From assembly GCF_021568795.1 (NCBI RefSeq), contig NZ_JAKGUE010000013.1, positions 1 to 64,000 of the forward strand: a stretch of DNA of 64,000 nt. Direction: 5' to 3'. Of this stretch, positions 6,416-24,411 are shown in pieces (within the stretch, counting starts at the first letter, position 1; each line of letters starts with the position of its first letter). Under the pieces are notes generated by a model, which saw only the letters and a list, made by a program, of their open reading frames with translations, was not told where the DNA came from and ran no database searches. This stretch comes from Dethiosulfovibrio faecalis. GTDB taxonomy: Bacteria > Synergistota > Synergistia > Synergistales > Dethiosulfovibrionaceae. The translations under genes were made by a program, and so were the position numbers.

Positions 6416-7216
6416 ATGAAGCGTAGCGGTGTTTTGGGGCTAGCCTGTGCCCTTATATGTTCCCTCAGCGTTCCGGCTTTTGCCCATTTTCAGATGGTAT
6501 ATACCCCTGAGAGCGCTCTGACCAAACCGGAGACCTTGAATCTCAAGCTTGTTTTTACCCATCCCTTCGAGGCGGGACACACCATGGACATGGACGGCGT
6601 GGACAGTTTCGTGATGGTTCATAAGGGCAAGAAGACCGATCTTACCAAGTCGGTCAAGCCCATAATGTGGACCAGTCTCACCAATTCCGGAAAGGGATAC
6701 GAGGCCGAGGTTCCCCTGAGAGGCATGGGAGACTTCGTCTTCGGTCTGGTCCCCATGCCCTACTTCGAGGCATCCGAGGGGATCTGGATGCAGCAGTGCA
6801 CCAAGATGGTAGTCAACGTCGCGGGGCTTCCCACCGACTGGAACGAGGAGATCGGCCTTCCCGCCGAGATAGTCCCTCTGGACAAGCCCTACGGTCTCTG
6901 GACCGGCAACGTCTTCCGCGGTGTGGTCAAGGCCAACGGAGAGCCCGTCCCCTTCGCCGAGATCGAGGTGGAGTATCTGAACCACCTTCCTATGCTGGAG
7001 GGTAATTCCTTCGCCGCCGAAGCAGCAGTGGAGGCCCCTCAGGATTGTTTCGTCACCCAGACCATCGTCGCCGATGCGAACGGTACATTCGTCTACGCCC
7101 TTCCCAAGGCCGGATGGTGGGGATTCGCCGCTCTCGGAGTGATAACCGAGGACTACAAGGGAGCCGAGCTCGGGAAGGATGCCGTCATCTGGGTCCAGGC
7201 CCGAGATATGAATTAG
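6416..7216 (+). CDS. DUF4198 family periplasmic protein
   Basis: A 266-residue exported protein of the DUF4198 group, found beside metal uptake systems in many anaerobes. A signal peptide (about 1-23, cleavage after PAFA) is followed by HFQMVYTPESAL, the typical opening that places a His right after the cleavage site, and by a beta-rich body with THPFEAGHTMDMDGV and a second domain (VFRGVVKANGEPVPFAEIEV) that looks like a carboxypeptidase-regulatory repeat. The ribosome site GAGAGGAGTG precedes the ATG at 6416. As the last secreted gene after feoAAB it probably helps bind or hand over metal outside the membrane; the exact ligand is unknown. Confidence 0.8.
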   Translation: MKRSGVLGLACALICSLSVPAFAHFQMVYTPESALTKPETLNLKLVFTHPFEAGHTMDMDGVDSFVMVHKGKKTDLTKSVKPIMWTSLTNSGKGYEAEVPLRGMGDFVFGLVPMPYFEASEGIWMQQCTKMVVNVAGLPTDWNEEIGLPAEIVPLDKPYGLWTGNVFRGVVKANGEPVPFAEIEVEYLNHLPMLEGNSFAAEAAVEAPQDCFVTQTIVADANGTFVYALPKAGWWGFAALGVITEDYKGAELGKDAVIWVQARDMN

Positions 7217-15358: not shown

Positions 15359-17032
15359 TTAGAACAATCCGGAGATTCTTCCGTTTTCGTCCACGTCTAT
15401 CGCCAGAGCGGCCGGTTTCTTGGGCAGACCCGGCATGGTCATTATGGAACCGGTTATGGCCACTATGAATCCGGCTCCGGCGGAGGCCCTTACCTCTCTG
15501 ACCGTTACGGTGAAGCCGGTAGGGCGGCCCTTCTTCGCCGGGTCGTCGGATATGGAGGCCTGGGTCTTGGCCATGCAGATCAGGAGGTCGTCCAGACCGA
15601 GATCGTGGATAGCCTTTAGGTCCTTCTCCGCTTTGTCGGTGAAACTGACTCCGTCGGCTCCGTAGATCTCAGTGGCTATCTTGGTGATCTTCTCCTTGGG
15701 GCTCAGCTTCTCGTCGTAGAGGAAGCGGAAATCGTTCTTCTCGTCGCAGGCGGCTATGACCTTCTCCGCCAGGTCGATTCCTCCCTCGCCTCCCTTGGCC
15801 CATATCTCAGACAGGGCCACCGGGGCGCCCAGGGCGGCGCATTTCTCCTCGACCAGCTTGAGCTCCTCTGGCGTGTCGGTGGGGAAGGCGTTGATAGCCA
15901 CCACCACGGGAAGCCCGAAGCTCTTCATGTTCTCTATATGTTTCTCCAGGTTGGGGATACCGGCGGCGAGGGCGTCCATGTTAACCTCGCCCAGCTTCTC
16001 CTTGGAAACTCCCCCGTGCATCTTGAGGGCCCTTACCGTGGCCACTATCACCACCGCGTTCGGCTTCAGACCGGCCAGACGACACTTGATGTCCAGAAAC
16101 TTCTCCGCGCCCAGGTCGGCGGCGAAGCCCGCCTCGGTCACGAAGTAATCCGCCAGCTTCAGGCCGTACTTGGTGGCCATGACGCTGTTGCAGCCGTGGG
16201 CTATGTTGGCGAAGGGGCCGCCGTGTATGAAGGCCGGAACGTGCTCCAAGGTCTGCACCAGGTTGGGCTTGAGGGCGTCCTTCAGCAGCATCGCCATGGC
16301 TCCCTGGGCTCCCAGGTCTCCCGCCGTCACAGCCTTGCCATCGTAGTCGTAGGCCACGATGATCTTGGCGAGCCTCTCCTTGAGGTCCGAGATCCCCGAG
16401 GCGAGACAGAGAATGGCCATTACCTCCGAAGCCACCGTTATGTCGAAGCCGTCCTCTCTGGGCATGCCGTGGGGTTTGCCCCCGAGGCCTATGACTGTAT
16501 GTCTCAGGGCCCTGTCGTTCATGTCCAGAACCCTCTTCAAGACGACCCTGCGGGGATCGATGTTCAGCTCGTTGCCCTGCTGTATCGAGTTGTCCAGCAT
16601 CGCGGCGAGGAGATTGTGGGCCGAGGTTATGGCGTGGAGGTCTCCGGTGAAGTGGATGTTGATGTCCTCCATAGGCACGACCTGGCTGTAACCGCCTCCG
16701 GCGGCTCCGCCCTTGACTCCGAAAACCGGGCCAAGAGATGGCTCTCTGAGGGCCAGGGTGGTCTTCTTTCCCAGCTTGGCCAGGGCCTGGGCTAGGCCTA
16801 CCGACGTGGTGGTCTTTCCCTCTCCAGCCGGGGTGGGGGTGATGGCCGTCACCAGGATGAGCTTGCCGTCCTCCTCGTCCTTGATACGGTTCCACAGATC
16901 GTAGGACACCTTGGCCTTGTACTTGCCGTAGTGCTCCAGGTCGTCCTCCTCTATGCCGAGTTGGGCGGCCACCTCCGTTATGGGTTTCATCTTAGCCTGC
17001 TGGGCTATCTCGATGTCCGAGAGAAATGCCAT
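15359..17032 (-). CDS. fhs: Formate-tetrahydrofolate ligase
   Basis: A 557-residue cytoplasmic enzyme joining formate to tetrahydrofolate with ATP, or running in reverse to make ATP during amino-acid catabolism. The P loop [13 protein letters not shown] (about 64-76), the region [20 protein letters not shown] and the conserved NxFxTDT-like [12 protein letters not shown] are all present, and the length is the family norm. The ATG at 17032 follows GGAGGAG by 9 bases; six further residues upstream would use a worse site. It is the last of three leftward genes glyA-like, dsdA, fhs, which suggests C1 units from serine or glycine are drained to formate. Confidence 0.96.
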
Positions 17033-17122
17033 GTAAGAACTCCTCCTCACTCTTTTGTCTCGTTTTTGGGACGCTCTGTCCCTTTTTTGCTCTTCAAAGA
17101 TCTTACCTCACATTTCGATCGA

Positions 17123-18415
17123 TCACAAGTCCGTTTGATCGGGTAAAACGGGGTCCTTCAACAGGTTCCGTCCTTTTTTCAACATATCTTCGTATAATTC
17201 GTCCGGCAGAAAGCTTCCTCCTGTAAGCCAGGATATCGCCGTCTCGCCGGGAAGCGGAGAGAGCAGCAACGGGCCCTGCAATCCTGCCGTCGCCGAGGGT
17301 TCTGTCTTGACCGACTCGGAACGGTCCATCAGATATTGAAGCTCGTAAAGGCGGTCGTCCTCCACGGTCATAACCCCGTCTATAAGATTGCGGCAGATGG
17401 ACCATACCAGTTTCGAAGGGGCTCCGACGGCAAGGCCGTCCGCCTCGGTGATCCCGTCTATGCCGTAATCCGAGACGGTGATATCCGGGGTGTCCTGTAC
17501 CATGGCCAGGGCCATACAGGGAGCGTGGGTCGGCTCTACGAACCAACATTTGACCGAGTCTCCGTAAAGCTGTTTGAGTCCGAAGGCTATTCCTCCGGGA
17601 GCTCCTCCGACTCCACACGGTAGATACACCCTGAGCGGGTGTTTGTCGTCGACGACGATCTTCATCTCCTTGAGTTGATTTCTAAGCCTGAGAGCTGCCA
17701 CGGCGTATCCCACAAACAGGAGTCGGGAGTTCTCGTCGTCGACGAAGTGACAGGTTTTGTCCTCACGGCAAATCCTCCGGCCTTCCGATACGGCGGTACT
17801 GTAATCGTCGTCGTGCTCTACCACCTTTACGCCCTTGGATCTCAAAAGTTCCTTTTTCCAGTTTTTTGCGTCTCTGGACATATGTACCGTCACGTTAAAG
17901 CCCAGCTCGGCGGACATCACCCCTATGCTGATCCCCAGGTTTCCAGTGGATCCTACCGCTACAGAGTGATGGGAGAACAGTTCCTTGAACTCCGGTTCTT
18001 CCAGAACCCGATAGTCTCGGTCTATCTCGAGTTTCCCCGATCTCAGAGCTATAGCCTCCGCGAGGGCGAGTATCTCGTGGATTCCCCCTCTGGCCTTTAT
18101 GGAGCCCGCCACAGGCAGGTCGTTGTCTTTCTTTAACAGCAGCCTCGGGAGGGTGGTTCCGTAGGATTTTTCCAATGCTTTTTTCAGTTTTCCCGCCTCG
18201 GATAGAGGTGATTCTATGATCCCGTCCGCCGTCTTCGGAAAACGGGAGGCCAGATAGGGTGCGAAGCGATGGAGCCTTCCGTCGGCATCGGCTACGTCCG
18301 ACATGGTCAAAGGGAGCTTTCTCAAGATTTCCGCAGCGGGAGATCTTCTGTCGTTTTCCCAGAACATGGGCTTTTTTCCCCTCAAAGATCTCAGTGTATC
18401 GTCTTTTTTGTCCAT
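17123..18415 (-). CDS. dsdA: D-serine ammonia-lyase
   Basis: A 430-residue PLP enzyme that turns D-serine into pyruvate and ammonia. The Schiff-base lysine lies in DLPVAGSIKARGGIHE, matching the DsdA consensus, and the glycine loop SVAVGSTGNLG that holds the PLP phosphate follows. Another family block is LPCGVGGAPGGIAFGLKQ. Length agrees with E. coli DsdA (442). It lies 28 bases downstream of a divergent glyA-like gene and 90 bases upstream of fhs, with no terminator of the right polarity between, so the three are probably co-transcribed. No DsdC regulator is present. Confidence 0.93.
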   Translation of the reverse strand: MDKKDDTLRSLRGKKPMFWENDRRSPAAEILRKLPLTMSDVADADGRLHRFAPYLASRFPKTADGIIESPLSEAGKLKKALEKSYGTTLPRLLLKKDNDLPVAGSIKARGGIHEILALAEAIALRSGKLEIDRDYRVLEEPEFKELFSHHSVAVGSTGNLGISIGVMSAELGFNVTVHMSRDAKNWKKELLRSKGVKVVEHDDDYSTAVSEGRRICREDKTCHFVDDENSRLLFVGYAVAALRLRNQLKEMKIVVDDKHPLRVYLPCGVGGAPGGIAFGLKQLYGDSVKCWFVEPTHAPCMALAMVQDTPDITVSDYGIDGITEADGLAVGAPSKLVWSICRNLIDGVMTVEDDRLYELQYLMDRSESVKTEPSATAGLQGPLLLSPLPGETAISWLTGGSFLPDELYEDMLKKGRNLLKDPVLPDQTDL

Positions 18416-18443
18416 AGGTTCAACCTCCCTGAAGTTGATAGTT

Positions 18444-19661
18444 TCACAGAATGGAGGAGGGGAATCGGCGACATAATTCGGCAGTTTCCTCCAATACGTT
18501 CTTTCCCGAAAGGGCCCTGGAGATGAGGGCTGCGACGGTCTCCATCTCCGATGGGCCCATTCCCCTCATGGCCGCCACCGTGGTGCCTATCCTTATGCCG
18601 CTGGCTATCCAGGGCTGTAGGGGGTCGAAAGGGATCCCGTTTCTGTTGACCGTGATTCCCGAGCTCTCCAGAAGCCCTTCGCCCTCCTTGCCGGTGATAT
18701 TAAGGTTCCTCAGGTCCAACAAGACTATGTGACTGTCGGTTCCTCCTGTCACTGTTCGGAGCCCTCGTCTCGTCAGCCCCGAGGCCAGGGCCCTCGCGTC
18801 GTCCACGATGCGTCCGGCCAATACCTTGAATTCCTTGGTCGCAGCTATGGCGAAGCAGGCCGCCTTTGCCGCTACCAGAGAGGTTATCATCGATCCCTGA
18901 TGGCCCGGGAATATGGCCAGGTCGATCTCCTTGGCGTATTTTTCACGGCAGAGGATACAGCCACCTCTGGGACCCGGCAGGGTTTTGTAAAGGGAGAAGG
19001 TCACGAAGTCGCAAAAAGGAACGGGGTTTACGTGAATTCCGGCGGCTATCAGTCCTGCCGTATGGGCAACGTCGGCCAGTAGCATCGCCCCCGATTCGTC
19101 CGCTATTTCCCTGAAGGTTTTCCAGTCGATCTCTCTGGGATAGCTGCTGCCTCCCCCCACTATCAGTTTGGGCCTGTATCTCATAGCCATATCTCGGAGT
19201 TGGTCCAGGTCTATGAGCTCGTCGTCTTTTCTCACCCCGTAATGTACGAATCGGTAAATTCTGCTGGCTATGTTTTTTTTGTGCCCGTGAGATAGATGTC
19301 CTCCCGACGACATATCCATGGATAGCACCGTGTCTCCCGGTTCCAGCACCGCCTGATACACAGCCAGGTTGGTGTTTGTACCGCAATGGGGCTGGACGTT
19401 TACGTGTTCCGCTCCGAACAGGGCTTTCGCCCTCTCTATAGCCAAGGTCTCTATCTCGTCCAGATATATCCCTCCGGCGTAGTATCTCTTGCCGGGATAT
19501 CCCTCTATGGTTCGGTTGGATAGACAGCTGCCGGAGATCTCCAGAATGGCTCGAGGGGCTATACTCTGAGATGCGACCATGTCGAGATGGTTTCTCTGTC
19601 TGTTCCTCTCAGCCTCTATGAGCTCTGCCAGCCGTACGTCGTCTTTCAAGTTGAATGCCAT
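18444..19661 (-). CDS. Divergent serine hydroxymethyltransferase-like PLP enzyme
   Basis: A 405-residue fold-type I PLP enzyme clearly related to GlyA. Retained by E. coli numbering: the PLP lysine (K229, YKTLPGPRGG), Glu57 and Tyr65 (IEGYPGKRYY) and the carboxylate Arg363 (SGIRIGT). Altered: the PLP-stacking His126 is Ser (DMSSGGHLSHG instead of LAHGGHLTHG), Tyr55 is Thr, His228 before the lysine is Tyr, and the ASEN motif is ASQS. The start at 19661 follows GGGAGGG by 9 bases. These changes argue against ordinary SHMT activity and for a related aldolase or another hydroxymethyl-type reaction. Its place before dsdA and fhs points to serine-type substrates. Confidence 0.85.
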   Translation of the reverse strand: MAFNLKDDVRLAELIEAERNRQRNHLDMVASQSIAPRAILEISGSCLSNRTIEGYPGKRYYAGGIYLDEIETLAIERAKALFGAEHVNVQPHCGTNTNLAVYQAVLEPGDTVLSMDMSSGGHLSHGHKKNIASRIYRFVHYGVRKDDELIDLDQLRDMAMRYRPKLIVGGGSSYPREIDWKTFREIADESGAMLLADVAHTAGLIAAGIHVNPVPFCDFVTFSLYKTLPGPRGGCILCREKYAKEIDLAIFPGHQGSMITSLVAAKAACFAIAATKEFKVLAGRIVDDARALASGLTRRGLRTVTGGTDSHIVLLDLRNLNITGKEGEGLLESSGITVNRNGIPFDPLQPWIASGIRIGTTVAAMRGMGPSEMETVAALISRALSGKNVLEETAELCRRFPSSIL

Positions 19662-19712
19662 CGTGAGTATCCCTCCCGAAGTCGTTTTGTTTAGACTAGA
19701 GGGAAAAACGCA

Positions 19713-19766
19713 AAAAGGCAATCGGTATTTTCCCGATTTTTCTACGGAAAATCCCGATCGCCTTTT
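19713..19766 (-). terminator. Terminator after the FmdE gene
   Basis: Outer stem AAAAGGC/GCCTTTT plus ATCGG/CCGAT with one mismatch, and an inner ATTTTCC/GGAAAAT stem. It separates the FmdE gene from the glyA-like operon on the minus strand. Confidence 0.65.
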
Positions 19767-19778
19767 CTGACTCCTACT

Positions 19779-20315
19779 TCATCTTTCTCCGTGTCTCTCC
19801 CTGTAGCAGGGAAGGCAATAGACCTCTCCATCCATGTTTCTGGTCATGGATTCCATGGTTCCCTCGCCGCATCCGGCACAGATAAGGGTGTTCTCCCTGA
19901 ACGCCTTCGGGGGAAGTTCCTCCCTCGGCGCCCCTAATTTAAAGAGCTCTTCCAAAGGGGCCTCCAGCAGATAGAGCCTGTATTCCTCCCTGTCCATCTC
20001 CCTGTTTAGGTTCGGTCTCAGGACCATCCTGATTCCCTTGCCGTCTCTACGTCGGTAGAAGGTGAAGGCCACCTTCCCGTAGTGATGGAGTACGAGGTTT
20101 CCTTTTCCCAGGGTGCAGTTAGTCATGTGCTGGATGGCGTCGATTCCGCACATATCGGTCTCGGATATGCATACCAGTTCCTCGTCTCCGTCGCCTTCTC
20201 CCAACTCCTTCAAAGCCAGTTCAGAAGCCCTTATCCCTATGGCCAGTCCAGGACACCGATGGCCGTGAAACCTCTCTACCTCGTCGTATTTGTTCGCTTT
20301 TTTGTCCTTATTCAA
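19779..20315 (-). CDS. FmdE family protein with C-terminal zinc ribbon
   Basis: A 178-residue protein of the FmdE family (formylmethanofuran dehydrogenase subunit E-like). The N-terminal domain has FHGHRCPGLAIGIRA, then CISETDMCGIDAIQHMTNCT and GKGNLVLHHYGKVAFTFYRR, a nearly perfect match to the family. The C terminus has a four-Cys zinc ribbon (CAGCG and CLPCY). TTG at 20315 lies 8 bases after GGGGAGGGG and is the preferred start; the open frame reaches 20384 without a ribosome site. No methanofuran pathway is present, so a metal-binding or molybdenum/tungsten-enzyme accessory role is inferred. It is divergent from a secreted tandem FmdE-like protein. Confidence 0.85.
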   Translation of the reverse strand: MNKDKKANKYDEVERFHGHRCPGLAIGIRASELALKELGEGDGDEELVCISETDMCGIDAIQHMTNCTLGKGNLVLHHYGKVAFTFYRRRDGKGIRMVLRPNLNREMDREEYRLYLLEAPLEELFKLGAPREELPPKAFRENTLICAGCGEGTMESMTRNMDGEVYCLPCYRERHGER

Positions 20316-20404
20316 AGCTATTTCCCCTCCCCGATTAGTCCAAAACATTTCCCGTATTTTGTTCCATAGTCGCTGAAAGGGCAAGGCTTTTTGTATACCT
20401 GTGC

Positions 20405-20434
20405 TTGACCGTAGCGATGGAACAGGTGTATCCT
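20405..20434 (+). promoter_or_regulatory. Promoter of the secreted FmdE-like gene
   Basis: -35 TTGACC (20405-20410), 18-base spacer, -10 TATCCT (20429-20434). Flanking ACCTGT and ACAGGT form a spaced inverted repeat around the -35, which could be an operator. Confidence 0.5.
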
Positions 20435-20491
20435 GCCGGTGGAGTTAGCATCACAAAACTAAGTTTTATAAAACGAGAGGAGCAGTGTGTG

Positions 20492-21805
20492 ATGAAGCGA
20501 GTTTTGCGTTTTTCCCTTTTTGCCTTGGTCGTCGCTTTAGTGGCGACCTCGGTCTTTTCTCTGGAGGTGTCTACTGCCTTCGCCTGGTCCGCCGAAAGTG
20601 ACGATAAAGAATTCTCTTATCTCCTAAGGGATGGTTCTCTTTCCTGTATAGCCGAGAAAGGCACGGTAAAGACTTTTTCCATGGCCGAGTCCTGCATGGA
20701 AGGAGAGGGCGATTCCCGCCACGCTTGTCTGTGCATGGCCATGGCCTATAGGGTGGCTCAGATAGTTTCGGGGGCCTGGAGCGACGGATTTTTCCATCCC
20801 GAGGACGTCATGGTTGCTACGGGATGGAACTCCGATGGAGCGGAGGAGCTTTTCTGCGATCTCCTTGGTGTGGATTCCGTGACCTACGGTGTGGACGGTT
20901 CTGTCACGAAACCCGGTGATATGACCCTTTTGGACTGTTGGTATAGAATCTCAATAAAATCGCTGGGTAAAACCTTTACCTTTAGGGGGACAGAGAAGAT
21001 TTTGACGGAGGATTTCCTGACCCTCAGACGTAAGGTAAAAGGAGGCGGAGGAACCGATGAGGAGAAAAAAGTCCTTGCCGCCAAGAAGATGGTGCTCTGG
21101 AACTCCATTCAGGAGAATCCTTTCGACGGGGGGTTTGAGGTGCGAGAATCAGAAACTGCAAGATGTCTCTGCGATGTCGTTCCTACCTCTACCCTTTACT
21201 ACGTTCTCTCCGACGATGTGGTGAGGAGCATGGATCTTCCCGATGCGGCTAAAGAGGATAACGGTTCAGGAGGAACCAAGATCTGCCTATGTCAGACAGT
21301 GGCCTTCAGGGTATCCCAAATGGTGTCCTCCAGTTGGTCCGACGGGATATTCCATCCCGAGGACATCTCCGTGGAGACCGGCTGGAATACCGATGGTCCC
21401 TTAGAGTTCTGGGTAGGCCAGATGGGCATGAGCTCCGAGGACGTAGTCATATCCAGTTCCGCCACCTCTGGAGACAGGCTCTCTCTGGCGGACTGCTGGT
21501 ACAAGGTGACGATAAAGTCTACCGGAGAGACCTACGTCGTCCGAGGGACCTCGGACCTTTACGTCTCGGACTTTCTAGCTCTTCGTGCTCTCTTCAAACA
21601 AGGGAAAGCTACGGATGAACAGACGAAGAGGATGAAAGAGCTAAGGGCGAAGACGGTGAATAATATCTGTTGTTCTCCCTTTGTCGCTAAGTTTTCGTCG
21701 GAAAGGCAAGAATCTAAAAAGGTAGGCTCCAGTGGCTGTTCCGTTTCTCCTTTCTCAGTCGTCTCCTTGGTTCTGTTGGCTCCTCTGGTTGCCCTCCGTA
21801 GGTAA
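20492..21805 (+). CDS. Secreted tandem FmdE-like protein with Synerg-CTERM-type tail
   Basis: A 437-residue exported protein. A signal peptide (about 1-30, ending STAFA) is followed by two copies of a domain of about 180 residues. The copies align at CLCMAMAYRVAQ/CLCQTVAFRVSQ, WSDGFFHPED/WSDGIFHPED, TGWNSDG/TGWNTDG and LLDCWYRISIKS/LADCWYKVTIKS. The opening resembles the HGHxCPG region of FmdE but the first His and the Pro are not kept in the second copy. The C terminus has Gly/Ser, one Cys, a hydrophobic stretch and a final Arg pair, the form of the Synerg-CTERM surface-sorting signal. The ATG at 20492 follows AGGAG by 9 bases. Ligand unknown; it is head-to-head with a cytoplasmic FmdE gene. 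Confidence 0.75.
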   Translation: MKRVLRFSLFALVVALVATSVFSLEVSTAFAWSAESDDKEFSYLLRDGSLSCIAEKGTVKTFSMAESCMEGEGDSRHACLCMAMAYRVAQIVSGAWSDGFFHPEDVMVATGWNSDGAEELFCDLLGVDSVTYGVDGSVTKPGDMTLLDCWYRISIKSLGKTFTFRGTEKILTEDFLTLRRKVKGGGGTDEEKKVLAAKKMVLWNSIQENPFDGGFEVRESETARCLCDVVPTSTLYYVLSDDVVRSMDLPDAAKEDNGSGGTKICLCQTVAFRVSQMVSSSWSDGIFHPEDISVETGWNTDGPLEFWVGQMGMSSEDVVISSSATSGDRLSLADCWYKVTIKSTGETYVVRGTSDLYVSDFLALRALFKQGKATDEQTKRMKELRAKTVNNICCSPFVAKFSSERQESKKVGSSGCSVSPFSVVSLVLLAPLVALRR

Positions 21806-21862: not shown

Positions 21863-22792
21863 TTATATCGTAGCTATCATTTTCTCTATATCTACCTTAT
21901 GAGGCAACATTCCGTTGTCGAACAGAAAATCCTGGGTTCTCTTCAGTTCCTCCACATCGGAAGGGCGAATCGTGGAGTCGAAGTCGTAGAGGGGGAGCAT
22001 TGTCTTTACGTCGTCGACGGAGAGTCCCGTCTCTTCCGCCGTTATCTCTATGGCTCTCGTCCTGTCGCTATCCAGGAGATTGACGCTCTCCTCGTCCACC
22101 TTCATAAAACGTCGAACCAGATCGGGGGCGTCCCTGAGAAGCTCTCCTCTGACAGCGATAACGGTGGTGGCGTCCACCAGGCCTTCCCCCGTCGTTATTA
22201 TCCTAGCCCCCCGTTCGGTTGATCTCAGTACAGCGGGTCCGGCGGCCAGACAGGCGTCTACGCTCCCGTTCATCATCGCCGTAACCCCGTCGGCCAGCCC
22301 CATTCCGAGGAACTGAACGTCGTTTACCGACAACCCCTCTCTTTTCAGAGCCGCTACCAGCAGCTGATGGAGTATGGTCCCTTTAGGACCTGCGATTTTC
22401 TTCCCCTTGAGATCGGCGATTGACGCGATGTCTTTGTCCTTTGCCAGTACTGTAAAGGCCTTAGGTGAACGGGCGAATATGCCTATCACCTTCAGGTCGA
22501 CCCCGTTGGCGTAGGCCAGAATAGCCGATGTTCCACCGAGACAGTTTGCTACGTCCACCGACCCGGAGGCAAGACCGGCGGTCTGCTTGGGCCCGGCGGT
22601 CAATTCGGGGTGAGACACGGTGAAATCGGGAAAGGCTTTTTCTATGAGTTTCAGTTCCTTCTGTAGGATAGACGGCACGTTGAGTGGGGCCTTTACGTAC
22701 GTCACGCTGAGTTCCTTTTCCTTCGCCGTCGTCTGTACGACAGTGGATGCCAGGATGACTGCGGCTACTACGGTTATGGCCATTCTCTTCAA
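21863..22792 (-). CDS. NitT/TauT-type ABC transporter substrate-binding protein
   Basis: A roughly 309-residue exported binding protein of the SsuA/TauA/ThiY fold. It has a signal peptide (about 1-25), then LSVTYVKAPLNVPSILQKEL, SGSVDVANCLGGTSAILAYANGVDLKVIGI and IADLKGKKIAGPKGTILHQLL, the usual landmarks. The start is either TTG 22792 (12 bases after AAAGGAG) or ATG 22783; both keep the signal peptide. It is the last gene of a permease-ATPase-receptor operon. The family takes up alkanesulfonates, taurine, nitrate or pyrimidines, and nothing in the sequence decides which. Confidence 0.85.
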   Translation of the reverse strand: MKRMAITVVAAVILASTVVQTTAKEKELSVTYVKAPLNVPSILQKELKLIEKAFPDFTVSHPELTAGPKQTAGLASGSVDVANCLGGTSAILAYANGVDLKVIGIFARSPKAFTVLAKDKDIASIADLKGKKIAGPKGTILHQLLVAALKREGLSVNDVQFLGMGLADGVTAMMNGSVDACLAAGPAVLRSTERGARIITTGEGLVDATTVIAVRGELLRDAPDLVRRFMKVDEESVNLLDSDRTRAIEITAEETGLSVDDVKTMLPLYDFDSTIRPSDVEELKRTQDFLFDNGMLPHKVDIEKMIATI

Positions 22793-22799
22793 TCCAGAG

Positions 22800-23540
22800 T
22801 CAAGCTCCTTTCGACAGGGTCGATCGCGACGATCCCCCGTCATCGTCGAGGGATGCGAGGATCCCTGCTTTTAGTGTCTCCCTTTCCTGTAGGTTCATGG
22901 AGCTTGAGTTAACGTCCTCCATTACCGACAGGATCCTGCCTTTTCCCATTACGACTATTCTGGAAGCCAGAAAAATGGCCTCCTCGACGTCGTGTGTAAC
23001 CAGAACGACGGTCAATCCCCTTTTTTCTACCAAGAGAGCTAGATCCTGTTGTAGCTTTCTTCTGGTGAAATAATCCAGTGCTCCGAAAGGCTCGTCCATC
23101 AACAATATTTCCGGCTCGTAAGCCAATGCTCTTGCTAGGGCGACTCTTTGTGACATACCGCCGGAAAGTTGACTCGGCATGGCATTCTCGAAATATGACA
23201 ACCCGACCTGTTTCAATATCTCTTCGATTCGATCGGTATTCTCTGAGGTTTTGTCGAGCACGAGTTCGACGTTTTTTCTTACCGATAGCCAGGGCATAAG
23301 TCTCGGCTCTTGGAAGACGACCCCTACGGAATGCCCTCCTTTCATCACGATTTCTCCGGACGATGGAGGAGCGAGTCCGGCCATTAACCTCAGCATGGTC
23401 GTCTTTCCGCATCCGCTTTTGCCGAGGACTACCGTGAAGGATCCTATGGGGAACTCGATGGAGACGTTTTTCAGCGCTGTTATGTCGGATCGACCAGGCA
23501 CCGAAAATCTCTTATATATGGATTTAAGCTCACATTTCAT
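22800..23540 (-). CDS. NitT/TauT-type ABC transporter ATP-binding protein
   Basis: A 246-residue ABC ATPase of the SsuB/TauB group. Walker A is GKSGCGKTT (about 39-47), the Q loop VVFQEPRLMPWL is typical of this subfamily, the signature is LSGGMSQR, Walker B ILLMDEPFGALD, and the switch His lies in VLVTHDVEEA. It overlaps the permease gene by 11 bases and powers the importer with the permease and binding protein on either side. Confidence 0.92.
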   Translation of the reverse strand: MKCELKSIYKRFSVPGRSDITALKNVSIEFPIGSFTVVLGKSGCGKTTMLRLMAGLAPPSSGEIVMKGGHSVGVVFQEPRLMPWLSVRKNVELVLDKTSENTDRIEEILKQVGLSYFENAMPSQLSGGMSQRVALARALAYEPEILLMDEPFGALDYFTRRKLQQDLALLVEKRGLTVVLVTHDVEEAIFLASRIVVMGKGRILSVMEDVNSSSMNLQERETLKAGILASLDDDGGSSRSTLSKGA

Positions 23541-24303
23541 CGGAGGCGTTCCCCTTCCATGGGACCAATTTGCTGGATAGCTTTAGAAAGCCCCAGTCGG
23601 ATAGGCAGCCTATCACTCCCATGAGGATAACTCCCGCTACGATCACATCCGATCGCGAAAGTTGTTCCGCGTCGTGTATCACGTAGCCTATTCCGGACGA
23701 TGCTGCTATCAGTTCCGCTCCTATCAGCGAGCGCCAGCTGTACCCAAGCCCAAGCCTCATCCCCACCAGAATCGATGGAAGAGCGGACGGAACCAGGATC
23801 TCCCTGAAACGCCGTCTCCGGGACATCCGGAAGACTCGTCCCACCTCCAGGAGGCTTTCGTCGCATGAGACGACCCCTTCCTGGGTATTTAGGAGAATAG
23901 GGAAAAAGGTTGCCATGACTACGACGACTATCTTGGATATCTCCCCTATGCCGAACCATAATATCAACATGGGCATCACAGCGAGGGGAGGAACGTGTCG
24001 CAGAAAGTCCAGCGTGGGGTCGAACCACCTTCGAGAGCTCGATGAAAGTCCCAGCAAAAATCCCATTGGAACGGCTGTGATCACCGAAATGACGAATCCC
24101 GTAAAGACCCTGAAAAAGCTGGCCCCCATGTGGCGGACAAGGCTCCCGTCCATAGCCATTTCTTTGAGGGGTTTTATAACCTTGCAAGGAGCCGGAATAA
24201 CGTAATCGTTCCAGGCGTTCTGGTTCGAGCCGAGCCACCAAAGTAAAAGTATTGCCGCGGGGAAAACCGCTCCTCCGGCGAGGCGTTTAACGTCTCTTCT
24301 CAC
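23530..24303 (-). CDS. NitT/TauT-type ABC transporter permease
   Basis: A 257-residue inner-membrane permease with about six membrane segments. The EAA-type loop that contacts the ATPase is seen as the block from FRMSRRRRFREILVPSALPSI onward, followed by GMRLGLGYSWRSLIGAELIA, close to SsuC/TauC. The GTG start at 24303 is preceded by GGAGGAGG. First gene of the leftward importer operon, behind a good promoter. Confidence 0.92.
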   Translation of the reverse strand: MRRDVKRLAGGAVFPAAILLLWWLGSNQNAWNDYVIPAPCKVIKPLKEMAMDGSLVRHMGASFFRVFTGFVISVITAVPMGFLLGLSSSSRRWFDPTLDFLRHVPPLAVMPMLILWFGIGEISKIVVVVMATFFPILLNTQEGVVSCDESLLEVGRVFRMSRRRRFREILVPSALPSILVGMRLGLGYSWRSLIGAELIAASSGIGYVIHDAEQLSRSDVIVAGVILMGVIGCLSDWGFLKLSSKLVPWKGNASDEM

Positions 24304-24342: not shown

Positions 24343-24371
24343 ATTGTACTACGGAATGTTAGAATGAGCAA
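24343..24371 (-). promoter_or_regulatory. Promoter of the NitT/TauT-type importer
   Basis: On the minus strand -35 TTGCTC (24366-24371), 17-base spacer, -10 TACAAT (24343-24348), followed by a leader of about 30 bases to the GTG at 24303. The -35 touches the preceding terminator palindrome. Confidence 0.6.
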
Positions 24372-24411
24372 ACGTAAGGCTCCGTCGATATATCGACGGA
24401 GCCTTACGTTT
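24370..24411 (-). terminator. Perfect 21-bp palindromic terminator after the FKBP gene
   Basis: A loopless 42-base perfect palindrome beginning AAACGTAAGGCTCCG. It lies just after the FKBP stop codon (minus strand). Confidence 0.8.

Follow-up and report, generated by a model that had tools for sequence, protein, structure and literature searches.

FmdE structures were released between 2006 and 2008, and the FmdE proteins are without an agreed function. In Dethiosulfovibrio faecalis a gene for such a protein lies head to head with a gene for an exported protein, within the 64,000-nucleotide stretch analysed here (the window), which raises the question of what the exported protein is and whether the two genes belong together in any functional sense. 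The two divergent genes proposed in the first-pass annotation are real, one at 19779-20384 on the minus strand and the other at 20492-21805 on the plus strand. Comparisons were made across a sample of 185 Synergistota genomes, seven of them from the genus (G000, which is the window genome, G106, G107, G108, G109, G110 and G111).

The cytoplasmic FmdE and the exported protein

In a Pfam scan, the minus-strand ORF at 19779-20384 scores 128.1 bits against PF02663 (cut-off 22.9) and 30.8 bits against PF01258, a C4 zinc finger (cut-off 24.9), bearing out its first identification as an FmdE with a zinc ribbon, and its phmmer matches include 2gvi, 3d00 and 2glz. The start of the gene is probably the TTG at 20315 and not 20384, because a purine-rich ribosome-binding stretch precedes it; judging from the sequence and its congeners, the likely coding part is 19779..20315. 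Four metal ligands of FmdE have been defined from the structures 2glz and 2gvi (PMC2954224, accessible portions), and all four (His-x-His-x-Cys and a distant Cys) are present in the cytoplasmic protein. Three lie in the FHGHRC motif at 20253..20270, and the fourth is a Cys, with MCGID present, whose codon begins at 20150. The C4 zinc finger, with its two Cys pairs, is encoded at 19806..19880, all on the minus strand. This is the architecture of the FmdE proteins with a C-terminal zinc finger (2gvi and 3d00), with every core ligand kept, although the linker is short and only positions 1-91 of the 133 in the PF02663 profile are matched. The cytoplasmic FmdE is an ordinary FmdE; according to the accessible text of PMC5039349, FmdE in bacteria without fwdABCD was already known.

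The plus-strand gene begins at the ATG at 20492, not at 20405, and encodes a protein of 437 amino acids (20492..21805) in which a hydrophobic N-terminal signal is followed by two repeats and, at the end, by a Synerg-CTERM tail. The repeats, numbered 2 and 3 after longer homologues, span 20603..21148, with an HxCxC motif at 20720-20734, and 21173..21703, with a CxC motif at 21278-21292. The tail, which contains a Gly-Cys motif (21725..21802), was correctly recognised in the first-pass annotation, scoring 25.3 bits in the genome search against the TIGR04564 cut-off of 22.5, and falling slightly short of it when the whole protein was scanned (21.1 bits). Eleven such tails are found in the window genome, eight of them over the cut-off. 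A sigma-70-like promoter for the exported gene lies at 20405..20434 on the plus strand (9/12 matches; 1 found versus 0.3 expected), and the congeners G111 and G109 have an 11/12 promoter in the same intergenic region (TTGACA-16-TATACT).

With its signal peptide, Gly-Cys motif, hydrophobic stretch and basic end, the exported protein resembles the sorted surface proteins that carry Synerg-CTERM or MYXO-CTERM tails. A cognate processing enzyme for Synerg-CTERM tails exists. By the myxosortase model, the tail would sort the exported protein and anchor it at the cell surface; MYXO-CTERM is itself a different tag family from Synerg-CTERM (PMC11980579, accessible portions).

Relationship of the exported repeats to FmdE

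Sequence searches alone do not place the exported protein among the FmdE proteins. It has no Pfam match at E<=1, fails the PF02663 gathering cut-off of 22.9 bits, and gave nothing useful in a sequence search of the PDB. Six homologues were scanned as well, and the best of them, from G022, reaches 20.1 bits with PF02663, under the cut-off, with no PF02663 match in the other five. Single-sequence HMM scores of the repeats against two FmdE subtypes are similarly weak, at most 9.9 and 3.0 bits, compared to 4.4 and 8.8 bits for the best shuffled controls.

Profile comparisons are more informative. With a first FmdE alignment, FmdE matches a profile of 13 repeats with an E value of 4e-6, the best of 20 column shuffles reaching 0.14. 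With a cleaner alignment, the repeats match a long-linker FmdE subtype (E 2.1e-5) but fail to match short-linker FmdE, the subtype of the neighbouring protein (E 0.24), so that they appear to resemble an FmdE subtype other than that of their neighbour. Because the repeats match this other subtype, an origin of the exported protein as a duplicate of the neighbouring FmdE was rejected. Repeat 1, which is absent from the window copy, does not match FmdE significantly when taken alone (E 0.01) and is clearly related to repeats 2 and 3 (E 1e-15).

AlphaFold models were built for the whole exported protein (pLDDT 74.3, pTM 0.66), from an alignment of eight family members, and for repeat 2 alone (pLDDT 91.3, pTM 0.88); no cytoplasmic FmdE was present in either alignment. 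In VIA comparisons, the whole model finds 3d00 (Z 9.1, over 134 residues, falling on repeat 3 with a model range of 232-411), 2glz (8.9) and 2gvi (7.5), followed by a next score of 5.2. Repeat 2 alone gives Z values of 9.4 (2glz_A, over 133 residues), 8.7 and 7.8 for the three FmdE structures, and 5.3 for the next. The four best chains in a Foldseek search with the whole model are all FmdE (2glz twice, 2gvi and 3d00; E 0.007 to 0.24), and FmdE structures are absent within E 10 when repeat 2 is searched alone. A possible bridge at the sequence level between PF02663 FmdE and the exported repeats is found in G038, in which an exported single-domain FmdE protein (L076:1081-1794) matches PF02663 with 26.2 bits versus 22.9 and also matches the repeat profile. 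The FmdE core fold of the exported repeats is established by prediction, and common descent with FmdE is likely. The initial description of the repeats as FmdE-like finds no Pfam match in the HMM check, and is favoured by the predicted structures and the near-threshold homologue.

The closest comparison is with 2glz, a core-only PF02663 protein from Desulfitobacterium (PMC2954224, accessible portions), with which the exported repeats have the core fold in common, including a protruding helix pair. The exported protein differs in being exported, tandem and anchored by a C-terminal tail, and its two repeats plausibly pack as an internal pseudo-dimer. It also differs in its metal ligands. In repeat 2, His-Ala-Cys aligns on the His-x-Cys of FHGHxC and a second Cys follows two residues further, while repeat 3 has only the Cys pair at this position. 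The distant Cys ligand is lost in both. The FHGHxC Cys is thus kept in both repeats, counterparts of His15 and Cys55 of 2glz are absent, and a counterpart of His17 occurs only in repeat 2; measured against the four FmdE ligands, the exported gene retains only one or two (His and Cys in repeat 2, Cys in repeat 3). The CxC is invariant in 9/9 repeats of alignment A1, and the divergent homologues in G034 and G043 are without the Cys in repeats 2 and 3. In each of the five full-length forms in the alignment, repeat 1 has a conserved Cys at or near both of these positions (by eye), and it is this pair, the best conserved in the family, that the window copy has lost.

Distribution and history of the exported family

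A protein search detected the exported family in 9 of the 185 genomes, and a search with the repeat profile detected 12 at E 0.01. The profile adds G109, where a genuine but incomplete copy lies beside FmdE at the end of a contig, as well as two matches not counted in the family, namely the single-domain protein of G038 and a match in G028 that looks unrelated. The total is 10/185, comprising G000, G106, G108, G109 and G111 in the genus and G021, G022, G034, G043 and G119 outside it. Viral contigs gave no match to the repeats, and among named bacterial genomes only two loci were found, in Synergistota bacterium L-13 and Acetomicrobium hydrogeniformans. FmdE itself is found in 67/185 genomes.

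The pairing of the two genes, on which the first-pass annotation relied, extends to relatives only within the genus. All five genus genomes with the exported gene carry it head to head with FmdE, and the two are adjacent in none of the five carriers outside the genus. The genes also occur separately: G043 has the exported gene and no FmdE match, and FmdE is present in G107, where the exported gene finds no match. In G110, the contig ends beside FmdE. Head-to-head placement is a local feature of one genus.

In its complete forms the exported protein is 784-880 amino acids long and contains a C-terminal domain as well as three repeats. Compared to the gene of G108, that of the window has two in-frame deletions, one of 621 nt at 20599..20600 (repeat 1) and one of 417 nt at 21730..21731 (C-terminal domain), and it would represent a two-repeat form cut down from an ancestor with three. 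In G106 only a remnant is left (L048 8900-10900), with the start, the signal, repeats 1 and 2 and part of repeat 3 lost and the frame broken, beside intact FmdE and flanking genes. Repeats 2 and 3 of the window copy nonetheless look constrained. Compared to G108, their dN/dS is 0.12 and 0.07, against 0.05-0.17 for flanking genes, values that span the time before the deletions too, and residue changes are even between the window and G108 branches (7 to 6 and 10 to 7), with no window-branch excess. Synonymous divergence between the same two genomes is 0.74 and 1.33 in the repeats versus 0.23-0.46 in flanking genes, as if the allele had been exchanged, to judge from the sequences. The exported protein represents a new and narrowly distributed family, with an FmdE fold on the evidence of the models and a probable location at the cell surface.

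Metal context and possible roles

The intergenic region of the exported gene provides one indication of its role. In G111 and G109, the -10 hexamer of this gene is followed, 5-9 nt further on, by a perfect inverted repeat, GTTAG-N6-CTAAC. Exact copies occur 14 times in the seven genus genomes: six between feo and flavodoxin genes, two before ZIP transporter genes, two at the exported-gene promoter (G109 and G111), three between dnaJ and prmA, and one inside a permease ORF (FeoA, DnaJ and the permease were named by eye). A reversed control pattern occurs seven times in the same genomes, and the repeat is therefore not strongly enriched overall; it is its placement that counts, the chance of finding it in 200 nt being about 8e-5. 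The repeat resembles what we take to be DtxR-type iron boxes, and a DtxR-family protein with an FeoA domain is encoded in the window genome. A candidate DtxR-type Fe/Mn regulon with feoAB and a ZIP transporter would fit the inverted repeat on the exported-gene promoter in two congeners, although the assignment to DtxR is our presumption and the window copy of the putative site is degenerate. That copy, at 20444..20459 on the plus strand, has two mismatches, a level at which there is no excess over chance in the window.

Other copies of the repeat are found elsewhere in the window. Two sites, one exact and one with one mismatch, lie at 2798-2925 between a flavodoxin gene and feoA-feoA-feoB, a place at which an exact site is found in six genus genomes. 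A one-mismatch repeat at 24358-24373, just upstream of sulfonate-type ABC transporter genes (21863-24303), may be due to chance. A DUF4198 protein (PF10670, 185.7 bits) is encoded at 6416-7216, with FeoB on one side and a Cu/Zn efflux transporter gene on the other, and its relative in L062 adjoins a CbiM-like gene (by eye).

Outside the genus, the neighbours point to nickel. In G022, a genome near-identical to that of strain L-13, the complete exported gene follows nickel-importer-like genes on the same strand, for NikA (615 bits, cut-off 393), a permease-like protein (by eye) and ATPases; the ATPase scanned falls below the NikD cut-off (269.6 vs 318.7). The exported gene there has its own strong promoter (11/12), so co-transcription with nik is not required. 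A long inverted repeat lies right behind this promoter, at L045 11990-12060. NikA is found at the same distance from the exported gene in G021. NikA over its cut-off is found in 14/185 genomes, six of the ten with the exported family and eight of the 175 without it (p 1e-5, uncorrected for phylogeny), or, counted by genus, in 3/5 with the family vs 7/57 (p 0.026, likewise uncorrected). A search of 12 further stretches around NikA, from 11 genomes, revealed no FmdE-like protein. Nickel is rejected as the only metal, since four of the ten family genomes have no NikA over the cut-off (the G106 remnant, G111, G034 and G119).

The first-pass annotation had suggested that the pair could handle, on both sides of the cell envelope, a metal such as Mo or W for a formate-type enzyme, and the phylum offers some grounds for this. 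FmdE and PF04879 co-occur (54 genomes with both, 13 with FmdE only, 57 with PF04879 only and 61 with neither; Fisher p 2e-5, uncorrected for phylogeny), and in seven genomes (G023, G024, G025, G026, G039, G040 and G121) the distance between an FmdE and a Molybdop_Fe4S4 domain on its strand is 2-2.4 kb. In G024 and G025, FmdE comes immediately after a formate-dehydrogenase-like gene that a stop codon divides, as we infer a selenocysteine codon would do. These FmdEs (L089:4696-5280 and L090:6249-6878) are 3d00-like paralogues just downstream of the split gene and near a molybdopterin-binding-domain gene, and the same arrangement was judged by position in G023, G026, G039, G040 and G121. The formate link does hold for this FmdE paralogue elsewhere in the phylum, but the sequences mark it as different from the FmdE of the window. 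In the window genome, rated 99.7% complete, there is no Molydop_binding (PF01568) match over the cut-off and, by that measure, no formate dehydrogenase. Its two PF04879 matches include one in an ORF beside hydrogenase-like genes (by eye), and its ModA is encoded on another contig with Moco-synthesis-like and xanthine-dehydrogenase-like genes (the latter names by eye). G107 has FmdE and zero PF04879 matches, and no Mo/W gene was recognised by eye near the exported gene at five loci outside the genus. The expected co-occurrence with formate dehydrogenase thus appears across the phylum, through PF04879 and the paralogues, and fails in the window genome. A Mo/W role for the pair is highly improbable, the cues at the exported gene being those of feo/ZIP-type control and nickel transport; what survives of the earlier proposal is an FmdE fold in both proteins, with a gene context that points to metal for the outer one.

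The neighbourhood of the cytoplasmic FmdE might suggest a joint role of the two proteins in folate one-carbon and serine metabolism, for example as sensor and effector. A one-carbon/serine block (15359..19721, minus strand) encodes SHMT (18444-19721), D-serine ammonia-lyase (17123-18415) and formate-THF ligase (fhs, 15359-17050); fhs lies within about 5 kb of FmdE in 7/7 genus genomes, fwdE without fwdABCD is a core gene of 14 acetogens (PMC5039349, accessible text), and the divergent intergenic region is common to both genes. Among the matches listed outside the genus, FmdE and fhs are less than 8 kb apart only in G179 and G121 (by eye). A terminator-like hairpin with a T run just 3' of FmdE (19705..19780, minus strand; -29 kcal/mol, z -4.9) parts it from SHMT, and because this hairpin is conserved in three species (G000, G108 and G106), an FmdE-SHMT-DsdA-Fhs operon headed by FmdE is unlikely in them. 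FmdE lies 10-12 nt upstream of DsdA in G109, G110 and G111, so joint transcription is possible there. The hairpin, the separation of the exported gene from FmdE outside the genus and its occurrence in G043 without any FmdE match speak against such a partnership, which we consider improbable. It is also possible, if doubtful, that the FmdE fold has been reused for a surface domain with a structural or binding role (contact with proteins, peptides or cells) and without its capacity for metal; several alleles would then be decaying, the window copy among them. Of the four ligands, two or three are lost, the solved FmdE protein 3d00 is also without metal in its core (PMC2954224, accessible portions), the G106 remnant, the absence from G107 and the shortened window copy look like decay, and the raised synonymous divergence of the repeats fits an exchanged surface gene. 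Such a domain is harder to reconcile with the invariant CxC, the conserved Cys pair of repeat 1, the operator common to feo, ZIP and exported genes in two congeners, and the nik neighbourhood.

The best explanation, to which we assign a probability of roughly 0.4, is that the exported protein consists of divergent FmdE-fold repeats of a different FmdE subtype, anchored by a Synerg-CTERM tail and serving metal uptake at the surface, with the cytoplasmic FmdE separate. The paired thiols of the exported protein, the operator sites found in congeners and the nik neighbourhood point to a protein that would bind, at the surface and for uptake, a metal complex or a divalent transition metal, and that would be made when metal is scarce. 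The cytoplasmic FmdE would be a separate zinc-finger metalloprotein near folate one-carbon genes. A broader reading, in which exported tandem FmdE proteins, two repeats standing for the dimer, form a surface metal-capture class that is induced by metal limitation and feeds Feo, ZIP or Nik importers from a site on the outer surface of a diderm anaerobe, is rather unlikely on the present evidence.

No description of an exported FmdE was found in the open-access literature, covered largely at the level of titles and abstracts. The protein described here suggests that the FmdE fold occurs outside the cytoplasm. The putative operator that the exported gene has in common, in two species, with importer genes for iron and zinc, together with nickel-importer-like neighbours in another lineage, makes a metal function of FmdE open to direct test.
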